DNA of 64,000 nucleotides, taken from positions 2,604,001-2,668,000 of the forward strand of contig NZ_CP065958.1 of assembly GCF_041270065.1 (NCBI RefSeq). The letters are read 5' to 3'. Under the pieces are notes generated by a model that was not told the DNA's origin, ran no database searches, and worked only from the letters and a program-made list of their open reading frames with translations. Both the position numbers and the translations under genes were made by a program. Of this stretch, positions 52,682-63,250 are shown one piece after another (within the stretch, counting starts at the first letter, position 1; each line of letters opens with the position of its first letter). This DNA is from Streptomyces fradiae. Its GTDB lineage: Bacteria > Actinomycetota > Actinomycetes > Streptomycetales > Streptomycetaceae.

Positions 52682-54136
52682 GTGACATACCCGCCGAACG
52701 CGCCCGCCGCCTCGGCGGCGCAGGGCACCGCCACCGCGCCCGCGCGGCCGGGTTCCGGCGTGCCCGCGCAGAGCGGAGCCGCGGGGCAGGCCGGGCCGGG
52801 CCCGGCTGCGGCGCCGCCGCCGCCCGACGGGCCCGGCGCCTGGGCCGAGGCCCGCGCCGTGCTGCGCCGCGCCGCCACCACCGAGCCTGGCCGGCTGCGG
52901 ATCCTCGGCGCCGTGCTGGCACTGCTCGTCGTCGCCTTCGGCGCCGTCACGGCGTACGAGGTGCTCGACCGCGCCTCGTACGCGGACGACGTGGTGGGCC
53001 GCAGCCAGCCGCTGAGCGCGGACGCCGCCGACATCTACCGCTCCCTCGCGGACGCGGACGCCACCGCGGCCAGCGGCTTCCTGGCCGGTCCGCAGGAGTC
53101 CGACCAGCTCCGCAAGCGCTACACGGACGACATCGCCACCGCCTCCCGGCTCCTGGTGAAGGCCGCCGCGAGCACCGACGCGGACGGCGGCTCGGGCCGC
53201 GAGATCGCCACGCTCAACGAGCATCTGCCGCGCTACACCGGTCTGGTGGAGCGGGCCAGGGCCGCCAACCGGCAGGGCCTGCCGCTCGGCGGCGCCTATC
53301 TGCGCTACGCGAACCTGACGATGACGCAGCAGCTGCTCCCGGCCGCCGAGCGGCTGTACGCGGCGGAGACCGAGCGCCTCGCCCAGGACGACGACGAGGC
53401 CCGCACCTGGCCGTTCCTGTCGATCGGCCTCGGGCTGCTCGCGCTCGCCGTGCTCGGCTGGGCGCAGCGCCGCAGCTATCTGCGCACCAACCGGGTGTTC
53501 AACCGCGGGCTGCTCGGCGCGACCACCGCCTGCGCGGTGGCGCTGCTCTGGCTGGTGGCCGGCCACGGGCTCGCCCGCGCCGGCCTCGACGACGCCCGGG
53601 CGCACGGCCAGGAGTCCCTGCAGGTCCTCAACGAGGCCCGGATCGGCTCCCTGAAGGCCCGCGCCAACGAGAACCTGGCCGTGGTGGGCCGCGGCGCCGT
53701 GCTCACCGAGGACGGCAAGAACGACAAGTACGAGGCCGACTACACGAGCAGCGCGAAGACGCTGACCGCCGCCCTGGAGGAGGCCGGCCGGCTCGCCGAC
53801 GACGGCGCGGGCCGCGACCCGGTGGCCGAGGCCACCAGCCGCACCGAGGAGTGGCGCACCCGGCACGCCCAGGCCCGGCAGCTCGACGACGCGGGCGACT
53901 TCACGGCCGCCATGAACAAGGTGATCGGCCGCACCGGCTCGACCGGCGAGTCCTTCGACCGGGTCGACGCGGCGCTCGGCCGGGCGCTGTCGCACGAGCA
54001 GGACGAGTTCACCCTGGCCGCCGAGGGCGGCCGGGACGCGCTGACCGGGCTGCCGCTGGGCGCGGCGGTCCTCGGCGTGCTCGCCGCGGGGTGCGCCGTG
54101 ACCGGCGTCAACCGCAGACTGTCGGAGTACCGGTGA
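52682..54136 (+). CDS. GlnX-like four-helix membrane sensor protein
   Basis: 484 residues from GTG 52682 after GGGGGAGG. A Pro/Ala-rich cytoplasmic N-terminus (~70 residues) is followed by helix 1 (72-93), an external helical domain (~95-240), helices 2 and 3 (~243-262, ~276-295), a second external helical domain and a final helix (~455-473). The two four-helix-bundle-like sensor domains and the neighbours match the mycobacterial GlnX (Rv0412c-type) protein, which relays amino-acid sensing by GlnH to PknG. First gene of the operon; the GTGA end allows coupling to the binding protein. Confidence 0.82.
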   Translation: MTYPPNAPAASAAQGTATAPARPGSGVPAQSGAAGQAGPGPAAAPPPPDGPGAWAEARAVLRRAATTEPGRLRILGAVLALLVVAFGAVTAYEVLDRASYADDVVGRSQPLSADAADIYRSLADADATAASGFLAGPQESDQLRKRYTDDIATASRLLVKAAASTDADGGSGREIATLNEHLPRYTGLVERARAANRQGLPLGGAYLRYANLTMTQQLLPAAERLYAAETERLAQDDDEARTWPFLSIGLGLLALAVLGWAQRRSYLRTNRVFNRGLLGATTACAVALLWLVAGHGLARAGLDDARAHGQESLQVLNEARIGSLKARANENLAVVGRGAVLTEDGKNDKYEADYTSSAKTLTAALEEAGRLADDGAGRDPVAEATSRTEEWRTRHAQARQLDDAGDFTAAMNKVIGRTGSTGESFDRVDAALGRALSHEQDEFTLAAEGGRDALTGLPLGAAVLGVLAAGCAVTGVNRRLSEYR

Positions 54137-54147
54137 GAGGGGGCGGG

Positions 54148-55284
54148 ATGCTGCCGGACGGCGTCGAGCGTACGACCGGGACGGTCCCCGGCCCGCAGGG
54201 CACCACGGGCACCACGGGCGGCGGCGCGCCCGCGCGGCGCGGGCCGGCACGGCTCCGTGGGTGGGGCGGGGTGGCCGCGATGGGGGTGGCGTGTTCGCTG
54301 ACCGCCGCGCTCGCCCTGTTCGCGCTGCCGCGTACCGCCGCCGACGGCGCCGTGCCGTCGCCCGGGCCCGGGCCGGGCGTCGGCAAGGGCGTGCAGGTGC
54401 GGGCGGAGAGCGCGGAGAGCTGTCAGAACCCGGAGGCCTCGCTGACGCCGTCGACCGCCGACGGAGAGGCGGTCACCCGGATCAAGAAGCGCGGAAAGCT
54501 GATCGTCGGCGTCGACCAGAACAGCTACAAGTGGGGCTTCCGCACGCCGCCGACGGTCACCCGGCAGCCCGACGGCTCGGTCAAGGAGACCCCCGGCGAG
54601 CTGGAGGGCTTCGACATCGACCTGGCGAAGGCCATCGCCAAGTCGATCCTCGGCGACGAGAACGCGGTCATCTTCCGCGCGATTCCGACCAACCAGCGGA
54701 TCGCCGCCCTCGAGGGCGACAAGGTCGACCTCGTGGTGCGGACCATGACGATCAACTGCAAGCGCATCCAGCAGGTCGCCTTCTCCACGGCCTACTTCCA
54801 GGCCGGTCAGCAGGTGCTCGCGCCGAAGTCCTCGCCGATCACCGGCTACGACAGCTCGCTGAGCGGCAAGCGGGTGTGCACGGCGGAGGGCTCGACGGCC
54901 TTCGAGGCGCTCCAGGAGAAGTCCTTCGGCGCGGTCTACAAGGACGTCGGCGACGGCACCAAGGACGACCCGGACCTGCTGACCGTGCCCAACCAGCTGG
55001 ACTGTCTGGCCCGGCTGCAGCTGGGCGAGGTCGACGCGGTGGTCACGGACAACGCGCTGGCCGCCGGCCAGGCCGCGCAGGACCCGGCCGTCGAGCTCAA
55101 GGGCCGGCCCTTCACCACCGAGTACTACGGAGTGGCGGCGAAGCTGCACAACGACGACCTGGTGCGCCGGGTCAACCAGGTGCTCGTCGAGTACCGGCAG
55201 GGCCCCTGGCAGCAGGCGTACGACAAGTGGCTGAAGGCGGACCTGCCGGGGATCGCCGGGCCGCCGGCCCCCATGTACAGGTAG
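54148..55284 (+). CDS. glnH: GlnH-like amino-acid binding protein, membrane-anchored
   Basis: 378 residues from ATG 54148; an in-frame GTG at 54133 overlaps the preceding stop and is a credible alternative. A single N-terminal helix (AAMGVACSLTAALALFALP) anchors it. The binding domain begins RIKKRGKLIVGVDQNSYKWGF and has GFDIDLAKAIAKSILGDENAVIFRAIPTNQRIAAL in sections. DLVVRTMTINCKRIQQVAFST and the QVLAPKSSPI stretch are typical of glutamate/glutamine/aspartate binders. No permease is adjacent, so it is a sensor rather than a transporter part, as in the GlnX-GlnH-PknG system. Confidence 0.88.
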   Translation: MLPDGVERTTGTVPGPQGTTGTTGGGAPARRGPARLRGWGGVAAMGVACSLTAALALFALPRTAADGAVPSPGPGPGVGKGVQVRAESAESCQNPEASLTPSTADGEAVTRIKKRGKLIVGVDQNSYKWGFRTPPTVTRQPDGSVKETPGELEGFDIDLAKAIAKSILGDENAVIFRAIPTNQRIAALEGDKVDLVVRTMTINCKRIQQVAFSTAYFQAGQQVLAPKSSPITGYDSSLSGKRVCTAEGSTAFEALQEKSFGAVYKDVGDGTKDDPDLLTVPNQLDCLARLQLGEVDAVVTDNALAAGQAAQDPAVELKGRPFTTEYYGVAAKLHNDDLVRRVNQVLVEYRQGPWQQAYDKWLKADLPGIAGPPAPMYR

Positions 55285-55338
55285 GCCCCCCCCACACACG
55301 TAACCCCAGGACAGGCAGCACGAGACGAGAGGTGATCG

Positions 55339-56619
55339 ATGGGCGGCGTCGCGGGACCCCCCGGTTCTCCGGTGATGGACCGGGACGAGGTGGACCGTGC
55401 GCTGGCGCGGCTCGGCGCGGAGCACAAGGCGGTCGAGGACTCGCTCCTCGCCCTCCAGGACCACGCCGGCCGCAGACTGCTCGAGGGCGCCGAGCTGACC
55501 GGCACGACCCGGGACCGCTGGCAGACCGCCGAGCGGTCGATCACCCTGCTGTGGGCGTACTTCGACGCGTACACGGCCGCCCTGCACGACACCCGTGAGG
55601 TACGGGCGAGGCGCCGCTGGCCCGGGCGGGACGAGCTCGTCGAGCTGACCGACCGGCTGCGCGGCGAGAGCGTGCACGTACCGGGAGCAGCCCTGGAACA
55701 GGCCGCGCTGGCCGAGCGGTTCACCCTGGACGGGCTCGTCACGCGGATGAACGAGCTGTACGCGTCCTCCCTCGACGTGGTGGTCACCGCCGACGCGGTC
55801 TGGTCGGCGCTGCCCGCGCGGATAGACCTGCTCGCCGCCGAGCTGGGCCGGACCCGGTCGCTCGCGCACTCGGTGGGCGTACGGCCCGGGGAGCACCCGG
55901 CCGGGGACGAACTGGAGTCGATCACCGCCGAGCTGACCGCGCTGCGCATCCAGGTGGTGTCGGACCCGCTGGCCTTCTGGCGGCCCGCGCAGGGCAGTTC
56001 CGCGCCCGGCGGCGGCCGGCCCGACACCGAGCGGTACGACACGGCGGCGCGCGCCCTGGAGGACATCCGGCGCGAGATCGAGGCGGTGCTGCAGGTCCGG
56101 CAGGACGCGGAGGAGCGGCTGCTGCGGCTGCGCGACGTGCTGTCCCGGGCGGACCGCACGCTCGCCGAGGCGCGGGCGGCGCGCGGCGAGGTGCTCGCGA
56201 AGATCGCCGCGTCCGAGGTGCCGGCGGTCAGCGGGCCGCCGATGGCCCTCCAGGAACGCCTGGCGGCGGCCGCCGAGCACCGCAGGCACGCCCGCTGGCA
56301 CCGGCTCTCGCCGCTGCTCGATGCCCTGGAGCAGGAGGCGGAAGAGGAACTCCTCCGGGCCCGCGAGTCGTTGACGGCGGTGACCGCGCCGCTCGCGGTC
56401 CGCGCGGAACTGCGCGGCCGGCTCGACGCGTACAAGGCGAAGGTGGCCCGGCTCGGCGCGGCGGAGGACCCGCTGCTCGTCGAGCGGTACGACGCGGCCC
56501 GCCGGATGCTGTGGAGCGCCCCCTGCGATCTGCGGGTCGCCGAGCAGGCGGTGCTGCGCTACCAGCAGGCGGCGGCGGACGTACTGTCCGGGCCGAGGGA
56601 TCAGAGGAACGAGTGGTGA
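55339..56619 (+). CDS. Coiled-coil protein of the PknG operon, function unknown
   Basis: 426 residues, cytoplasmic, without membrane helices. Almost entirely charged helix: HKAVEDSLLALQDHAGRRLLEG, ALEDIRREIEAVLQVRQDAEER, DRTLAEARAARGEVLAKIA and EQEAEEELLRARESLTAVTA suggest long coiled coils. It is not part of the mycobacterial glnX-glnH-pknG set, so it is an addition here. Its stop overlaps the kinase start (GTGA), implying equal production. A scaffold or kinase-docking role is inference. Confidence 0.8.
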   Translation: MGGVAGPPGSPVMDRDEVDRALARLGAEHKAVEDSLLALQDHAGRRLLEGAELTGTTRDRWQTAERSITLLWAYFDAYTAALHDTREVRARRRWPGRDELVELTDRLRGESVHVPGAALEQAALAERFTLDGLVTRMNELYASSLDVVVTADAVWSALPARIDLLAAELGRTRSLAHSVGVRPGEHPAGDELESITAELTALRIQVVSDPLAFWRPAQGSSAPGGGRPDTERYDTAARALEDIRREIEAVLQVRQDAEERLLRLRDVLSRADRTLAEARAARGEVLAKIAASEVPAVSGPPMALQERLAAAAEHRRHARWHRLSPLLDALEQEAEEELLRARESLTAVTAPLAVRAELRGRLDAYKAKVARLGAAEDPLLVERYDAARRMLWSAPCDLRVAEQAVLRYQQAAADVLSGPRDQRNEW

Positions 56620-59093
56620 GCGGGGGAACCGGAGTGAGCAGCTGTCAGCGTCCGACGTGCGAGGGCTCGTACGAGGACATGGGCGGCGGCGAGCTGTACT
56701 GCGACACGTGCGGTCTCGCCCCGGTCGTCGCGCCCGGCGGGATGCTGCAGGCGACCAGGACCGGGATGGCCGTGGCCGGCCGGGGCGGCGACTCGGGCCG
56801 TTCCGCGCCCTCCGCCCGTACGTCCTCGCGGTCGGCGCGCTCCTCGGCGTCCCGGCGTTCGGTGTCGGGGCGGCTGTCGCGCTCGCTGTCCGGGCGGAAC
56901 ACGGGCCGTTCGGTGTCGGTGCGCAGCTCGGGCTCGTCGAGCGGCGCCTCGGCGCGCGGCCGGCTGGGCGCGGGCCTGGTCACGGTGCCGGAGGTACCGC
57001 GTCCCGACCCGCGGGCCGCGGTGATGGAGAGCCCCGAGGTTCCCGAGAGGAAGCGATTCTGCTCGCGCTCCGACTGCGGTGCGCCGGTGGGCCGTTCGCG
57101 CGGAGACCGGGCGGGCCGCACCGAGGGCTTCTGCACCAAATGCGGGCACCCGTACTCCTTCGTGCCGAAGCTGCGCGCGGGCGACGTGGTGCACGGGCAG
57201 TACGAGGTGGCGGGCTGTCTCGCGCACGGCGGTCTCGGCTGGATCTATCTGGCCGTCGACAAGGCGGTCTCGGACCGCTGGGTGGTGCTCAAGGGCCTGC
57301 TCGACACCGGCGACCAGGACGCGATGGCCGCGGCGATCTCCGAGCGGCGCTTCCTCGCCGAGATCGAGCACTCCAACATCGTCCGCATCTACAACTTCGT
57401 CGAGCACCTGGACCAGCGCACCGGCTCCCTGGACGGCTACATCGTCATGGAGTACGTGGGCGGCAAGTCGCTCAAGGAGATCGCCAACGACCGGCGCACC
57501 CCGGACGGACGGCGCGATCCGCTGCCGGTCGAGCAGGCCTGCGCGTACGGCATCGAGGCCCTGGAGGCGCTCGGCCATCTGCACAGCCGCAACCTGCTGT
57601 ACTGCGACTTCAAGGTCGACAACGCGATCCAGACCGAGGACCAGCTGAAGCTCATCGACATGGGCGCGGTCCGGCGGATGGACGACGACGAGTCGGCGAT
57701 CTACGGCACGGTCGGCTACCAGGCGCCGGAGGTCGCCGAGGTCGGCCCGTCGGTGGCGAGCGACCTGTACACGGTGGCCCGCACCCTGGCGGTGCTGACC
57801 TTCGACTTCCAGGGCTACACCAATGTCTTCGCCGACTCGCTGCCCGAGCCGGACGGCATCGAGGTCTTCCGCACCTACGAGTCCTTCTACCGTTTCCTGG
57901 TGCGCGCCACCGACCCCGATCCGGCGCGCCGGTTCGGCTCCGCGCAGGAGATGGCGGAGCAGCTGACCGGTGTCCTCCGGGAGGTCGTCGCGCTGCAGTC
58001 GGGGCGGCCTCGGCCGGCGCTCTCGACGCTGTTCGGCGCCGAGACGCGGGTCACCGACACCGAGCTGTTCGAGGAGCTGACCGAGGACGTGTCGGTGCTC
58101 GGCGCGCGCGAGACCCGGCGGGCCCGGCGCTCGCTGCCGACCGCCGTGACCGGCCGGGCGGGCAGTTTCCTGCGCCTCTTCGACGTGCCGGCGACGGCGC
58201 TCGCGCTGCCGGTGCCGCGGGTCGACGCGGCCGATCCCAACGCCGGTTTCCTCGCGGGTCTGCTCGCCGCCGCGCCCGCCGAGCTGATCACCGCGCTGCA
58301 CGCGGCGCCGGTGGCCTCGCTCGAACTGCGGCTGCGCGAGCTGCGGGCGCGCCTGGAGATGGGCAACCTGGTGGCCGCCGGGCGCAGCCTGGACAACCTG
58401 GAGGACGGGCACGCCGACGACTGGCGGGTGGTCTGGTACCGGGGCGTGACCGCGCTGATCGCGGGCGACCGGGAGAGCGCGGCGCTGTCCTTCGACGCGA
58501 TCTACGACGCCTTCCCCGGCGAGCCGACGCCCAAGCTGGCGCTCGGCGTGTGCGCGGAGCTGCTCGGCCAGCTGGACAACGCCGCCGAGTACTACCGGCT
58601 CGTGTGGGCGACCGACCCCAGCTATGTCAGCGCCGCCTTCGGCCTGGCCCGGGTGCAGCTCGCGGCCGGCGACCGGCCCGGCGCGGTGCGCACCCTGGAG
58701 TCGGTGCCGGAGTCGTCGATCCACTACACGGCGGCCCGGGTCGCGGCGGTACGGGCCCGGCTGCGCCGGCGGCCCGCGAACGAGCCGCTGGGCGCGGACC
58801 TGACGGCCGCCGCCGCGCAGGTCTCGGCGCTGCAGGGCTTCGGCCTGGACGCGGTGCGCCGCGAGCAGCTGTCGACGGAGGTGCTCGGCACGGCCCTGGA
58901 CTGGGTGCTCTCGGGCAGCCCGGGCGCGGGCCCGGCCGGCACGGTGCTGCTCGGCAGCGCACTGGACGAGCGCGGACTGCGCTTCGGCCTCGAACGCTCC
59001 TACCGGGTGCTCGCCCGGCTCGCCCAGCGCGGCGAGGAGAGGATCGAACTGGTGGAGCGGGCCAACCGCTTCCGCCCCAGGACGTGGGTGTGA
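56616..59093 (+). CDS. pknG: PknG-type Ser/Thr protein kinase with zinc ribbons and TPR domain
   Basis: 825-residue soluble kinase. Start GTG 56616 overlaps the previous stop; GTG 56634 is possible. Order: an N-terminal ribbon (CQRPTC...CDTCG, from C10), a ~90-residue Ser/Arg-rich linker (RSARSSASRRSVSGRL), the rubredoxin-like domain (C149, C154, C173, C176), the kinase domain (~190-450) and a TPR-like helical C-terminus. Kinase residues are K226 (VVLKG), D331-F-K333 with N336 (CDFKVDN) and D348-M-G; APE appears as QAPEVAEVG. GVLREVVALQSGRPRPALSTLFG after the kinase is typical PknG text. It probably responds to GlnX/GlnH and targets an FHA protein. Confidence 0.93.
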   Translation: MSGGTGVSSCQRPTCEGSYEDMGGGELYCDTCGLAPVVAPGGMLQATRTGMAVAGRGGDSGRSAPSARTSSRSARSSASRRSVSGRLSRSLSGRNTGRSVSVRSSGSSSGASARGRLGAGLVTVPEVPRPDPRAAVMESPEVPERKRFCSRSDCGAPVGRSRGDRAGRTEGFCTKCGHPYSFVPKLRAGDVVHGQYEVAGCLAHGGLGWIYLAVDKAVSDRWVVLKGLLDTGDQDAMAAAISERRFLAEIEHSNIVRIYNFVEHLDQRTGSLDGYIVMEYVGGKSLKEIANDRRTPDGRRDPLPVEQACAYGIEALEALGHLHSRNLLYCDFKVDNAIQTEDQLKLIDMGAVRRMDDDESAIYGTVGYQAPEVAEVGPSVASDLYTVARTLAVLTFDFQGYTNVFADSLPEPDGIEVFRTYESFYRFLVRATDPDPARRFGSAQEMAEQLTGVLREVVALQSGRPRPALSTLFGAETRVTDTELFEELTEDVSVLGARETRRARRSLPTAVTGRAGSFLRLFDVPATALALPVPRVDAADPNAGFLAGLLAAAPAELITALHAAPVASLELRLRELRARLEMGNLVAAGRSLDNLEDGHADDWRVVWYRGVTALIAGDRESAALSFDAIYDAFPGEPTPKLALGVCAELLGQLDNAAEYYRLVWATDPSYVSAAFGLARVQLAAGDRPGAVRTLESVPESSIHYTAARVAAVRARLRRRPANEPLGADLTAAAAQVSALQGFGLDAVRREQLSTEVLGTALDWVLSGSPGAGPAGTVLLGSALDERGLRFGLERSYRVLARLAQRGEERIELVERANRFRPRTWV

Positions 59094-59095
59094 GT

Positions 59096-60466
59096 ATGCC
59101 GCTGAAACCGAAGCCCCCGCACCCCCTGGGGACCTGCCCCGAGTGCGCCGAACCCCTGGAGTCCGGGGACAAGTTCTGCGGCGCGTGCGGCTACGACCTC
59201 TCGGCGGCCGAGGTCCCGGACCGCCCGACGGTCCCGATCGCGCTGCCCGTGGACTGGCCGGACGCCCCGCCCCGCGACCCCAACTCCCTGACCACGGCCA
59301 CCCAGCATCCCGGCGAGCTGCCCGGCACCGACTCGGGCGGCCGCGACCTGCCGACGATCCCGGTGCGGACGGACGGGGTGCCGGAGGCGGGCGAGGGGGC
59401 GGTGGCCGACCCGGCAGGCGCGGCCGCGGCCCCCACCGGCGCGACCGGTGAGCACGGGGACGGGGACTTCACCCTGCCCGCGCCCGATCCGCGGGCGGCC
59501 CTTGCCGCAGGGGCGGCGGGTGCGGCGGCGGCCGCGGCCGGCGACGACCGGAAGGTGTGTGTGGCCTGCCGGACCGGACGGGTCGACGGGGACGGGTACT
59601 GCGAGCACTGCGGGCACGCGCAGCCGCGCGACCGCGATCACATGGAGGAGGAGCTGGCGGCGGTGGCCGCCGTCAGTGACCGGGGGCTGCGGCACCACCG
59701 CAACGAGGACTCCTTCGCGGTGGCCTCGGCGGCGCTGCCCGGCGGGCTGCCGGCCGCGCTCGCCGTGGTCTGCGACGGCGTGTCCTCGGCGACCCGCCCC
59801 GACGAGGCCTCCGCCGCGGCGGCCACCGCCGCCCGCACCACGCTGCTCGCGGCGCTGCCGCAGGGCACGCACCCGCAGCAGGCCATGCAGGAGGCGATCG
59901 TGGCCGCCGCCGACGCGGTCACCGCGCTCGCCGAGCGTCCGGCGGCCGGCGAGCGGGAGCACCAGAACGCCCCGGCCTGCACCATCGTCAGCGCGATCGT
60001 CGCCGACGGACTGCTGACCGTCGGCTGGGTCGGCGACAGCCGGGCCTACTGGGTGCCCGACGACCGCGGCACACCGCCCGCCCGGCTCACCGAGGACGAC
60101 TCGTGGGCCGCGCAGATGGTGGCCGCGGGTCTGATGAACGAGGCGCAGGCGTACGCCGACGAGCGCGCCCACGCGATCACCGGCTGGCTCGGCGCCGACA
60201 GCTACGAACTGGAGCCGCACACCGCCGCGTTCAAGCCGGACCGGCCGGGCGTGGTCGTGGTCTGCACGGACGGCCTGTGGAACTACGCCGAGGGCGCCGA
60301 GGACATGGCCCGGATCATGCCGCCGGACGCCGCCGAACGCCCGCTGCACGCGGCACAGGTGCTCGTCGGCCACGCCCTGGACGGGGGCGGCCACGACAAC
60401 ATCACGGTCGCGCTGCTGCCGTTCGCGCTCCCGGCGCCGTCCGCTCCGCAGCCGACTCGTACGTGA
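59096..60466 (+). CDS. PP2C-type protein phosphatase with two zinc ribbons
   Basis: 456 residues from ATG 59096; GTG 59090, overlapping the kinase stop, is an alternative. N-terminal ribbon C14-P-E-C17...C28-G-A-C31, a Pro/Ala-rich linker, a second ribbon (VCVACR...YCEHCG), then the PP2C domain from about residue 185. The domain has RHHRNEDSF, AVVCDGVSSATRPDEA, GWVGDSRAYWVP, VVVCTDGLWNYAE and GGHDNITVALLPF, so every metal-binding Asp is present. It should reverse phosphorylation by the PknG-type kinase next to it. Cytoplasmic; no helices. Confidence 0.94.
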   Translation: MPLKPKPPHPLGTCPECAEPLESGDKFCGACGYDLSAAEVPDRPTVPIALPVDWPDAPPRDPNSLTTATQHPGELPGTDSGGRDLPTIPVRTDGVPEAGEGAVADPAGAAAAPTGATGEHGDGDFTLPAPDPRAALAAGAAGAAAAAAGDDRKVCVACRTGRVDGDGYCEHCGHAQPRDRDHMEEELAAVAAVSDRGLRHHRNEDSFAVASAALPGGLPAALAVVCDGVSSATRPDEASAAAATAARTTLLAALPQGTHPQQAMQEAIVAAADAVTALAERPAAGEREHQNAPACTIVSAIVADGLLTVGWVGDSRAYWVPDDRGTPPARLTEDDSWAAQMVAAGLMNEAQAYADERAHAITGWLGADSYELEPHTAAFKPDRPGVVVVCTDGLWNYAEGAEDMARIMPPDAAERPLHAAQVLVGHALDGGGHDNITVALLPFALPAPSAPQPTRT

Positions 60467-60508
60467 CCTTCCTTCTTCTCTTCTCGTGAGCCGAGGAGCC
60501 GAATCACC

Positions 60509-61846
60509 ATGGCCAACTTCTCCAAACCCACCGGGCCGCAGTTCTCGGTGGACGTGTACCAGAACGAGTTCCTGCCGGAGGGCGGCCGGGACGTCAACGC
60601 GATCGTCACCGTGACCGCGACCGGCGGCGGCACCGCGCACGGCGCCCTGCCGGCGGCCGGCGGGGGCGGGGCCGGGTCCGCGGCCGTCGTCCTGATGCTC
60701 GACTGCTCGGGCTCGATGGACTACCCGGCGACCAAGATGCGCGGCGCCCGCGAGGCGACCGCCGCCGCCATCGACACCCTGCGCGACGGCACCTCCTTCG
60801 CCGTCGTCGCCGGCACCCACATCGCGCGCGAGGTGTACCCGGGCGGCGGGCGGCTCGCCGTCGCCGACGCCCGGACCCGCGCCGAGGCCAAGGACGCGCT
60901 GCGCGCCCTGAGCGCGAGCGGCGGCACCGCCATCGGCACCTGGCTGCGCCTCGCCGACCGGCTGCTCTCCTCCGCCGACGCCGCCATCCGGCACGGCATC
61001 CTGCTGACCGACGGGCGCAACGAGCACGAGTCGCCGGAGGACCTGCGGGCCGCGCTCGACGCCTGCGCGGGCCGCTTCACCTGCGACGCGCGCGGGGTCG
61101 GCACCGACTGGGAGGTCGAGGAGGTGCGCGGCATCGCCTCGGCGCTGCTCGGCACCGCCGACATCGTCGCCGACCCGGCCGGACTCGCCGCCGACTTCAC
61201 CACCATGATGGAAGGCGCCATGGGCAAGGAGGTCGCCGACGTCGCCCTGCGCCTGTGGACCCCGGTCGGGGTGGAGATCGGCTTCGTGAAGCAGGTGGCG
61301 CCGACGGTCGAGGACCTGTCCGGGCGGCGCACCGAGGCGGGCCCGCGCGCCGGGGACTACCCGACCGGTTCGTGGGGCGACGAGTCCCGCGACTACCACG
61401 TGTCGGTACGGGTGCCCCAGGCCGCCGTCGGCCAGGAGATGCTGGCGGCCCGGGTCTCGCTGATCGTCCCGGACCCGGCGGGCGGCGCGCCGGTGACGCT
61501 GTCCCAGGGACTGGTACGGGCGGTGTGGACCGACGACATGGTGATGTCCACCGCGATCAACGCGCAGGTCGCGCACTACACCGGGCAGGCCGAGCTGGCC
61601 GACGCCATCCAGCAGGGCATGGACGCCCGCAAATCGGGCGATCACGACGGCGCGACGGCCAAACTCGGGCGCGCGGTGCAGCTCGCGGCGGCCTCCGGGA
61701 ACGCCGATACCGCGAAACTGCTTTCGAAGGTGGTGGACGTGGTCGACGCCGCGACGGGTACTGTGCGTTTGAAGGCGAAGGTCGCGGAAGCGGACGAGAT
61801 GACTCTCGAGACGCGCTCCACCAAGACCGTTCGCGTGAAGAAGTAG
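60509..61846 (+). CDS. von Willebrand factor A domain protein
   Basis: 445 residues, ATG 60509 after CCGAGGAG. N-terminal ~50 residues (FSKPTGPQFSVDVYQNEFL) are beta-rich. The vWA domain (~60-235) has an intact MIDAS: D65-C-S67-G-S69, later GGTAIGTWL (Thr) and LLTDGRNEHE (Asp). A beta-sandwich and helical tail follow, with DGATAKLGRAVQLAAASGNADTAKLLSKVV. TerD/Mg-chelatase-like adaptor roles are known for the family. In this operon it could be a kinase substrate or assembly factor; inferred. Confidence 0.92.
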   Translation: MANFSKPTGPQFSVDVYQNEFLPEGGRDVNAIVTVTATGGGTAHGALPAAGGGGAGSAAVVLMLDCSGSMDYPATKMRGAREATAAAIDTLRDGTSFAVVAGTHIAREVYPGGGRLAVADARTRAEAKDALRALSASGGTAIGTWLRLADRLLSSADAAIRHGILLTDGRNEHESPEDLRAALDACAGRFTCDARGVGTDWEVEEVRGIASALLGTADIVADPAGLAADFTTMMEGAMGKEVADVALRLWTPVGVEIGFVKQVAPTVEDLSGRRTEAGPRAGDYPTGSWGDESRDYHVSVRVPQAAVGQEMLAARVSLIVPDPAGGAPVTLSQGLVRAVWTDDMVMSTAINAQVAHYTGQAELADAIQQGMDARKSGDHDGATAKLGRAVQLAAASGNADTAKLLSKVVDVVDAATGTVRLKAKVAEADEMTLETRSTKTVRVKK

Positions 61847-61909
61847 CCCGTCAGGGCGAGGAAGCCGCCGCCCGGCAGGGCGAGGACGAGGAGAGGGGGA
61901 AGCACCGAC

Positions 61910-63250
61910 ATGCCGACCTGCCCGAACGGACACCAGTCGGTCTCCGACGACTGGTGCGAGGTCTGCGGCCACCGCATGGCGGCCGGGGCGGGTGCGCCGA
62001 CGGGTGCCGTACCGCCGCCTCCCCCGCCGCCGCCTCCCGCGTACGGATATCCCGGCCCCGGTGGTCCCGGCCCTGGTGGTCCGGGTGCTCCCGGCGGGCC
62101 GGTCCCGCCGCCGCCCGCCGCGCCCGGCGGCTTCGGCCCGGGCGGCGACCCGAACGCCACCGCCCAGGCGGAGCTCTGCCCGCAGTGCCGGACGCCGCGC
62201 GAGCACATGGCGCCGTTCTGCGAGGAGTGCCGCTGGAACTTCCTCACCAACACGGCGACCTCCTACACCCCGCTCGCCCCGCAGAGCGCGCCCCACGCGC
62301 CGCAGGGCCCGGGTCCGCAGGGTCCGCCGCCCGGTCTGAACCTGCCGCCGGGCTTCCAGTCCCCGCCGGTGCAGGGTCAGCCGCCGCAGGGCCCGCCGAT
62401 GCCGCCTCAGCCCATGCCGCCGCAGCCCGTTCCGGGCCAGCCGATGCAGGGTCAGCAGCCGGACCCGTTCGACTACCAGGGCTCGCGGCCCTCGCAGGTG
62501 AACCGGCCGGCCGAGCCGCTGGGCGCCGACCCGACGCACCACCAGGCGCCGCCGCGCCCGCCGATGCCGCAGGCCCCGCAGGCGCCCCAGGCCCCGCATG
62601 GCTTCCCGGCCGCGCCGCCGCAGGCCGCGCCCCCGCAGCCCGCCCCGCCGCAGCCGCGGGCCGACGACGACTGGATGCTGTCGCCGCCCTCGATGCCGCA
62701 GCCCCCGGCCCCGGCCCCCGCGCCGATGGGTCCCGGTCCGATGGGCGGTCCGCCGCCGCAGTTCCAGCAGGGCCCGCCGCCGGTCCCGCAGCCCCAGGCC
62801 CCGCAGGCGCCTCAGGCTCCTCAGCCGCAGGTTCCGCAGCCGCAGCTCGGCTGGACCGCGGTGATCGGCCCGGACCGCGAGTACTTCATGGCGATGATGC
62901 AGCGCAGCGGCCCGGAGGCCGGGGGGCTCAACCTCCCCGCGTACTCCCCCGAGCAGCACATCCCGCTGCAGGGCAACCAGATCAGCATCGGCCGCCGCCG
63001 GCACTCCACCGGCGAGTCGCCCGACATCGACCTGTCGGTGCCGCCGGAGGACCCGGGCGTCTCGCACCAGCACGCGGTGCTGGTGGCGCAGCCGGACGGT
63101 TCGTGGGCGGTGGTGGACCAGAACTCCACCAACGGCACGACGATCAACGGCTCGCCCGACCCGATCCAGCCCTATGTGCCGGTGCAGCTCCAGGAGGGCG
63201 ACCGGGTGCACGTCGGCGCCTGGACGACGATCACCGTACGGCGCGGCTGA
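61910..63250 (+). CDS. FHA domain protein with zinc ribbons and a Pro/Gln-rich linker
   Basis: 446 residues, ATG 61910 after GAGGAGAGGGGGAAG. First zinc ribbon CPNGHQSVSDDWCEVCG (residues ~3-19), a Pro/Gly linker, a second ribbon CPQCRTPREHMAPFCEECR, then ~200 residues of PQ-rich low complexity (QGPPMPPQPMPPQPVPGQPM style). The C-terminal FHA domain has the phosphothreonine-binding GRRRHS, SHQHAVL and NSTNGT motifs. PknG homologues phosphorylate FHA proteins (GarA/OdhI) in other actinobacteria, so this may be the output reader, although the linker is much longer than in GarA. Confidence 0.93.
   Translation: MPTCPNGHQSVSDDWCEVCGHRMAAGAGAPTGAVPPPPPPPPPAYGYPGPGGPGPGGPGAPGGPVPPPPAAPGGFGPGGDPNATAQAELCPQCRTPREHMAPFCEECRWNFLTNTATSYTPLAPQSAPHAPQGPGPQGPPPGLNLPPGFQSPPVQGQPPQGPPMPPQPMPPQPVPGQPMQGQQPDPFDYQGSRPSQVNRPAEPLGADPTHHQAPPRPPMPQAPQAPQAPHGFPAAPPQAAPPQPAPPQPRADDDWMLSPPSMPQPPAPAPAPMGPGPMGGPPPQFQQGPPPVPQPQAPQAPQAPQPQVPQPQLGWTAVIGPDREYFMAMMQRSGPEAGGLNLPAYSPEQHIPLQGNQISIGRRRHSTGESPDIDLSVPPEDPGVSHQHAVLVAQPDGSWAVVDQNSTNGTTINGSPDPIQPYVPVQLQEGDRVHVGAWTTITVRRG

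Follow-up and report, generated by a model that had tools for sequence, protein, structure and literature searches.

The window analyzed here is a 64,000-nucleotide (nt) stretch of the Streptomyces fradiae genome (a single contig of 7.88 Mb, NZ_CP065958.1, positions 2,604,001 to 2,668,000), in which seven genes follow one another on the forward strand between positions 52682 and 63250, from the GTG that opens glnX to the stop codon of the last gene. In order, they encode a GlnX-family transducer, a GlnH-type binding protein, a predicted coiled-coil (CC) protein, the kinase PknG, a PP2C phosphatase, a von Willebrand factor type A (vWA) protein, and an FHA protein (Table 1). A glnX-glnH-pknG operon is known from Mycobacterium and Corynebacterium, and the literature describes the three-gene linkage as conserved in Actinobacteria and the proteins as present in Streptomyces (PMC6069109, PMC9769921, PMC8546545). 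An earlier, sequence-only reading of this DNA had described the locus as an extended form of that operon, with all genes on one strand and separated by small gaps or overlapping starts. Strand and gene limits were confirmed, as were the domains using Pfam and NCBIfam, and the tight packing was borne out as well, as the successive spacings are 11, 54, -4, 2, 42 and 63 nt, with several start codons being uncertain (GTG 56634 and GTG 59090 are alternative starts for PknG and PP2C, respectively). A 309-nt gap lies 5' of the set, a convergent gene for a PCMT-like methyltransferase lies 23 nt from its 3' end, and a scan for promoters and terminators found 0 and 0, compared to 0.1 and 1.3 expected from shuffled sequences. 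Comparison with other genomes indicates that the seven genes are one conserved unit.

Table 1. Genes and domains of the seven-gene set, in window coordinates (aa, amino acids).
Feature	Position	Strand	Evidence
GlnX-family transmembrane signal transducer, 484 aa	52682..54136	+	NCBIfam NF058618, 467 bits (cut-off 250)
GlnH-type solute-binding protein, 378 aa	54148..55284	+	SBP_bac_3, 81 bits
CC, almost all-helical protein, 426 aa	55339..56619	+	AlphaFold2; co-distribution with PknG
CC C-terminal signature, residues ~340-410	56356..56568	+	Best-conserved part between families
PknG kinase, 825 aa	56616..59093	+	PknG_rubred, Pkinase, PknG_TPR; PDB 2pzi
PknG extra N-terminal zinc ribbon	56643..56711	+	Cys pattern; not in mycobacterial type
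PknG rubredoxin domain	56952..57173	+	PF16919, 110 bits
PknG kinase domain	57204..57803	+	PF00069, 86 bits
PknG TPR domain	58191..59084	+	PF16918, 300 bits
PP2C phosphatase, two zinc ribbons N-terminal to the catalytic domain, 456 aa	59096..60466	+	PF13672, PF13240, Cys census
vWA protein with complete metal-ion-dependent adhesion site (MIDAS), 445 aa	60509..61846	+	VWA_3, 42 bits; VWA_3_C, 81 bits
FHA protein, 446 aa	61910..63250	+	PF00498, 58 bits; Cys census
FHA domain	62981..63217	+	PF00498; key residues

Conservation of the gene order was seen at two scales. Among the best 80 of the 577 confirmed loci for the window vWA protein (identities 79-88%; 78 titled Streptomyces and 2 titled "Actinobacteria bacterium"), 67 have exactly the seven-gene order with every gene in a single frame, 2 have it with one gene divided between two frames, and the remaining 11 run into a contig end; the arrangement is far beyond chance. 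In these 67 loci, with start codons chosen by script, the CC-pknG gap had a median of -4 nt and was at most 58 nt in every case, and the pknG-PP2C gap had a median of 3 nt. At the larger scale, PknG_TPR scored over cut-off in 55 of the 197 genomes of our class sample, and we fetched 70 regions (L035-L104), scoring them first with single sequences and afterwards with iterated profiles. In the family designations used below, f1 is the window's genus, and f4 is inferred to be the mycobacterial type, since the single f4 GlnX that we scored passes the equivalog model "protein kinase G-activating protein GlnX" and f4 has the highest PknG_TPR scores. The full seven-gene order was found in all 14 intact main loci of f1 (single genes are split over two frames in L042, CC, and in L047, pknG), in 5/5 f26 loci, in the one f11 locus, and in 7/9 f18 main loci, including L084 with PP2C in two pieces; of the other two, L077 is without CC, vWA and FHA and L081 is truncated by a contig end, and a tenth f18 genome (G056) has solely loci of other content. 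Three of the eight f17 loci read CC-PknG-PP2C-vWA-FHA-GlnX-GlnH, two are without vWA, L074 has CC on another contig, and the remaining two reach a contig end, with L068 in addition having no vWA and FHA after PP2C. In f4, GlnX-GlnH-PknG stands alone in 14 of 16 loci, and PknG by itself in the other two. Left out of these main-locus counts, due to their other content, were the second PknG_TPR loci of Streptomyces (L049-L054) and f18 loci L085, L086, L090, L093 and L095-L099. The f27 locus L092 (PknG, PP2C, fragments and a contig end) was excluded too, and matches of the iterated FHA profile to frames that are very long and probably spurious (L061, L062, L092) were not counted either. In the 3 kb on either side of the operon, one contiguous flank is common to f11 and f26; the few other matches are between f1 and f18, f17 and f18, and f11 and f4. 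Because flanks match between families in so few cases, the order shared by f1, f17, f18 and f26 is, judging from these comparisons, not explained by a shared neighbourhood. The neighbourhood search that had been proposed for this locus places the seven-gene unit beyond this strain and across families. In the window itself, the two upstream neighbours resemble, judged by eye, a 6-phospho-glycosidase and an N-acetylglucosamine kinase.

The distribution of the CC and vWA proteins points in the same direction. Taking at least 50 bits with a 16-row alignment as presence of CC, and at least 200 bits with a 15-row alignment as presence of the vWA family, 38 of the 197 genomes had CC and 35 had vWA (the latter including G153, where the locus is decayed), all of them PknG carriers. 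Among the 41 PknG carriers outside f4 these counts are again 38 and 35, and the 14 carriers in f4 have neither. None of the 142 genomes without PknG had CC or vWA, the best scores being 29 and 74 bits, respectively, although such absences rest on at most nine scored first-look candidates per genome and are not exhaustive. Within our sample, therefore, CC and this vWA family are confined to PknG carriers, as far as these profile scores indicate. It is quite unlikely that the genes are mere neighbours, with PknG acting on GarA as it does in mycobacteria and another pathway being served by PP2C, vWA and FHA. A GarA-like protein is indeed encoded elsewhere in the genome, and at the decayed f1 locus L100 little is left of the kinase gene while CC, PP2C and FHA stay open, both of which would suit that explanation, but the co-distribution of CC and vWA with PknG, the order kept across families, and the 4-nt overlap of the CC stop codon with the pknG start (GTG 56616) argue against it. 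At L100, glnX, glnH and the vWA gene are broken too. The GarA/OdhI-like protein (L001, G000:C1:1064736-1065134) scored 194 bits, compared to a cut-off of 200, and by eye carries an ETTS motif and a zinc ribbon of its own at the N-terminus. The OdhI/GarA model matched at E<=0.001 in 197/197 genomes, including the 142 without PknG, and over cut-off in 20/197, and the weak matches may be other FHA proteins. With a GarA-like ETTS protein encoded elsewhere, the window FHA protein was ruled out as a replacement for GarA, and for the same reason GarA control may coexist with the seven-gene circuit.

The residues expected of a kinase, a phosphatase and a phospho-reader are in place. All three domains that mark PknG (rubredoxin PF16919, kinase PF00069, TPR PF16918) scored over cut-off, the protein matches PDB 2pzi with 573 bits over residues 116-822, no membrane domain was found in it with Pfam, and the catalytic K, D, N and D are retained in the window and in 64/64 other rows. 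Its extra N-terminal ribbon was present in 14/14 f1, 7/8 f17, 5/5 f26, 1/1 f11 and 1/1 f73 rows, and was rarer or missing in f18 (5/18), f27 (0/1) and f4 (0/16). The phosphatase matches PP2C_2 with 49 bits and NF033484 with 107 bits, under the cut-off of 230, and its metal-binding Asp residues are retained in the window and in all f1, f17, f26, f11, f27 and f73 rows; in f18, each position is kept in 7 to 9 of 10 rows. In the vWA protein, MIDAS residues D65, S67, S69, T140 and D168 are invariant in 15/15 rows; its AlphaFold2 model was poor (predicted local distance difference test, pLDDT, 49.5) and was set aside in favor of the solved structure 4fx5, a "von Willebrand factor type A" chain that the family profile matches over its length with 583 bits. 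The FHA protein combines N-terminal zinc-ribbon-like Cys clusters, a Pro/Gln-rich linker and a C-terminal FHA domain with key residues G361, R362, S385, H386, N408 and G409; G, S and N are found in every row, and R in all except two f18 rows. A Cys census found zinc-ribbon-like clusters on PknG, PP2C and FHA in most rows of the seven-gene families. With the key residues of PknG, PP2C, vWA and FHA kept in the window, the set of sensor, kinase, phosphatase and reader that had been proposed for this locus is plausible.

The window GlnX carries the mark of the GlnX family of GlnX-GlnH-PknG sensory operons (NF058618, over cut-off), and stays below the mycobacterial equivalog NF041460 (163.5 bits vs a cut-off of 780). 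For GlnH, the best PDB match is the mycobacterial GlnH 6h1u (167 bits). Our comparison of the binding pockets rests on the seven polar ligand contacts named in PMC6069109, in which Asp/Glu specificity of GlnH is predicted within Actinomycetales. Window residues R184, T199, R206 and D301 retain mycobacterial R147, T162, R169 and D250, while Q283 occupies the W232 position, R198 replaces K161, and the S164 position is Thr, as it is in 12/14 f4 rows. The Q and R substitutions are fixed in all 14 readable f1 rows and found in no f4 row, and in the rows sampled a W at the W232 position was never seen outside f4. GlnH is described as a lipoprotein in Corynebacterium glutamicum, a property that we did not use as a defining criterion. 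A scan with lipobox patterns found none in the window and no lipoprotein-like protein among 15 f1 rows, two of which pass a relaxed pattern, yet with a hydrophobic stretch that continues past the Cys; the lipobox was present in 13/14 f4, 5/5 f26, 1/1 f11, 5/7 f17 and 9/19 f18 rows, some N-termini being uncertain. Because the window and f1 proteins have a hydrophobic segment at the N-terminus without a lipobox, it is possible that in Streptomyces GlnH is anchored by a membrane helix in place of a lipid.

The CC protein is modelled by AlphaFold2 (pLDDT 87, predicted TM-score, pTM, 0.68) as helices except for four three-residue strands; no fold match to this model was found in the PDB at E<=0.001, and no curated family of Pfam or NCBIfam matched the protein over cut-off. 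Between families its conservation is strongest in the C-terminal 75 residues, where L358, L362, A367, G373, A387, L391, P395 and A401 are invariant or nearly so in 16 rows. All matches of at least 50 bits with fetched surroundings, obtained with a profile built by iteration, for which drift is possible with helical proteins, occupy the same slot upstream of the kinase gene; in L093 another frame lies between the two, in L100 CC precedes the kinase remnant, and in G131, the exception, CC is on another contig. CC and vWA are linked to PknG and their role is apparently undescribed, as the sequence-only reading had suspected: we found nothing on it in the open-access literature, outside which most subscription journals lie.

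Additional copies of parts of the set help to delimit its core. In f18, second cassettes (L195-L199) lie at one conserved site beside genes that by eye are ispD-, ispF- and cysS-like, and in two genomes consist of CC-kinase-PP2C-vWA-FHA, with no GlnX or GlnH within the 20 kb fetched; the one kinase scanned (L198) had no TPR match. Their vWA proteins fall inside the clade of main-locus f18 vWA proteins (Shimodaira-Hasegawa-like approximate likelihood ratio test, SH-aLRT, 98, in a quick tree), and the second cassette is therefore a duplication. Because CC is kept in cassettes with no GlnX nearby and, in L198, with no TPR match in the kinase, CC belongs to a kinase-PP2C-vWA-FHA core and need not depend on GlnX or the TPR. 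One copy of this core has GlnX/GlnH as its front end, and on the duplicated f18 copy no front end was seen. We tentatively propose, at somewhat less than even odds, that PknG would by origin be the writer of a CC-kinase-PP2C-vWA-FHA switch with an interchangeable front end, that CC would couple GlnX to the kinase, and that the mycobacterial PknG-GarA pair would be a stripped remnant. Other arrangements were seen around PknG_TPR kinases: in Streptomyces paralogs L052, L053 and L054 a second such kinase is followed by a divergent vWA gene, with no PP2C or FHA recognised beside it, and in f18 loci L085, L086, L090, L095 and L099 another one faces an additional GlnH-GlnX pair encoded on the other strand.

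The existence of the five-gene block without nearby GlnX/GlnH in f18 also bears on the alternative that CC-kinase-PP2C-vWA-FHA is a stress, metal or conflict switch resembling TerY-P that has borrowed the amino-acid sensor GlnX/GlnH, with an output other than central metabolism. The TerY-P triad is made of a vWA protein, a PP2C and a Ser/Thr kinase with a zinc ribbon, and a kinase-PP2C-vWA theme is described for actinobacteria in GAP1-N2 neighbourhoods (PMC11090510, PMC7159879), which, with the many zinc ribbons of the block proteins, would fit this alternative. We nonetheless consider it unlikely: the ribbon/OB fold of TerY-P kinases is C-terminal (PMC11090510), while the ribbons here are N-terminal and the C-terminus is PknG_TPR, and because the kinase has no C-terminal ribbon we did not file the set as TerY-P. 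Using PADLOC at E<=0.01, no match was found for CC, vWA or FHA (whether PADLOC holds a TerY model was not checked), PP2C had one of 19 bits, and, with flanks compared by similarity, a conflict gene may still lie nearby; the matches of the kinase were to kinase models and were not taken as defence.

The direction of change between the three- and seven-gene forms was approached through a locus outside the class. G370, a genome of another class, has CC-PknG-PP2C-vWA-FHA on one strand, with GlnX-GlnH and one more gene converging on the other, and its domains were confirmed by Pfam and NCBIfam. Because the Prs encoded on this contig shows 84% identity to its counterpart in the same family and 66-69% to that in f77, also of its class, compared to at most 58% over near-full length in the remaining genomes (43 tried in total, including f41 of G370's class; one partial match of 64% is in G212, also of that class), we judge the contig to be native to its class. 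A PknG tree of 42 rows, obtained after dropping 29 locus ids (near-copies, paralogs, long branches) and rooted on this copy (L193), recovered an f1+f17+f4 clade (100/98) with f4 inside it, joined to f17 (86/78), and an f18+f26+f11 clade (96/93). Grouping all seven-gene class lineages together against f4 and the outgroup was rejected by the approximately unbiased (AU) test (p-AU 0.00046), the group having been named after the tree was seen. With f4 nested inside the seven-gene PknG clade, the mycobacterial three-gene operon is most simply, and we think quite probably, a reduced seven-gene form, and the earlier description of the window operon as "extended" should therefore be reversed. On the opposite account, the three-gene operon is ancestral, CC-PP2C-vWA-FHA were gained once and spread, and the out-of-class copy is a transfer. 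In its favor, a long branch (0.79) separates f4 from all other rows of the unrooted tree, and a root placed on it needs one gain; furthermore, midpoint rooting, which falls beside the Streptomyces paralogs, leaves the base unresolved. Because PknG was found in 1/24 genomes of G370's class, and G281, of the same family as G370, has a different gene at the site, the G370 copy may indeed be a transfer, which weakens the rooting. We regard this account as improbable all the same, as the L193 root, the rejection of f4 at the base and the Prs identities speak against it.

On balance, we give a probability of roughly 60% to the reading that the seven-gene set is a membrane-gated Ser/Thr writer-eraser-reader circuit of which mycobacteria keep the sensor and the kinase. 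By analogy with mycobacteria, GlnH would bind an amino acid outside the membrane and signal via GlnX to PknG, while CC would scaffold the cytoplasmic complex and probably couple it to GlnX. PknG would phosphorylate its partners, probably including the separately encoded GarA-like protein, PP2C would reset the phospho-mark, and the FHA protein would bind phosphothreonine on PknG or its partners, its state being set by kinase and phosphatase as in the type VI threonine phosphorylation pathway (PMC12133291). The vWA protein might act as a metal-dependent assembly platform, and the zinc ribbons on PknG, PP2C and FHA might help hold the complex together. The three-gene operon would then have arisen by loss of CC, PP2C, vWA and FHA; GarA would have stayed on as the main FHA partner, and the eraser would be a general phosphatase. 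Besides the possible transfer to G370 and the limited depth of the CC and vWA absences, a number of observations weigh against this reading. The extra PknG ribbon is missing in 13/18 f18 rows, and the FHA His is replaced by Arg in f26, f11 and 7/9 f18 rows. No vWA match was found in f17 genomes G071, G121, G189 and G037 (in G037 the locus ends at a contig end), and the locus of f18 genome G088 has no CC, no FHA and no full vWA; because of these cases, the circuit must tolerate losses. Lastly, three of the five f18 second cassettes are PP2C-vWA-FHA without an adjoining CC or kinase.

The significance of these findings lies in part in the mycobacterial system, where the route from GlnX to PknG has been described as elusive (PMC9769921). 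The seven-gene form supplies candidates in harmless and tractable Streptomyces, where CC could be the coupler or scaffold, PP2C the cognate phosphatase, the FHA protein the reader and the vWA protein the platform, and suggests that the mycobacterial and corynebacterial models are a reduced version whose rules, therefore, need not hold for antibiotic producers. We found no paper in the open-access literature (most subscription journals lie outside it) that links PknG to the CC, vWA, PP2C and FHA genes, and the available part of a 2005 kinase survey (PMC1262709) does not describe the seven-gene operon.

Compared with the mycobacterial and corynebacterial operon, the set shares a GlnX-family protein, a GlnH-type binding protein, and a PknG with rubredoxin, kinase and TPR domains, and differs in having four more genes, an extra N-terminal ribbon on PknG, a GlnX that stays below the equivalog cut-off, a GlnH in which no lipobox was found, and two residues of the GlnH pocket unlike those of every f4 row. 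With the TerY-P triad it has in common the adjacent kinase, PP2C and vWA genes and the zinc ribbons; the kinase, however, is a PknG, with its ribbons at the N-terminus and a TPR domain at the C-terminus, and CC, FHA and a GlnX/GlnH sensor are added. The type VI pathway, TagQRST-PpkA-PppA-Fha1 (PMC12133291), likewise joins a membrane sensor, a kinase, its cognate phosphatase and an FHA protein, with the kinase, PP2C and FHA genes together, but PpkA is a membrane kinase with a fused vWA (PMC1262709) that controls secretion firing, whereas here the vWA is separate, the sensor is an amino-acid binding protein, and PknG has no Pfam membrane domain. The complete circuit suggested by the sequence-only reading stands in part: all its parts are encoded together and PknG, PP2C, vWA and FHA keep their key residues, but kinase-PP2C-vWA triads were already of a known kind (PMC11090510, PMC7159879). 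While these triads and sensor-kinase-phosphatase-FHA circuits are already known, the seven-gene version built on PknG appears to be new.

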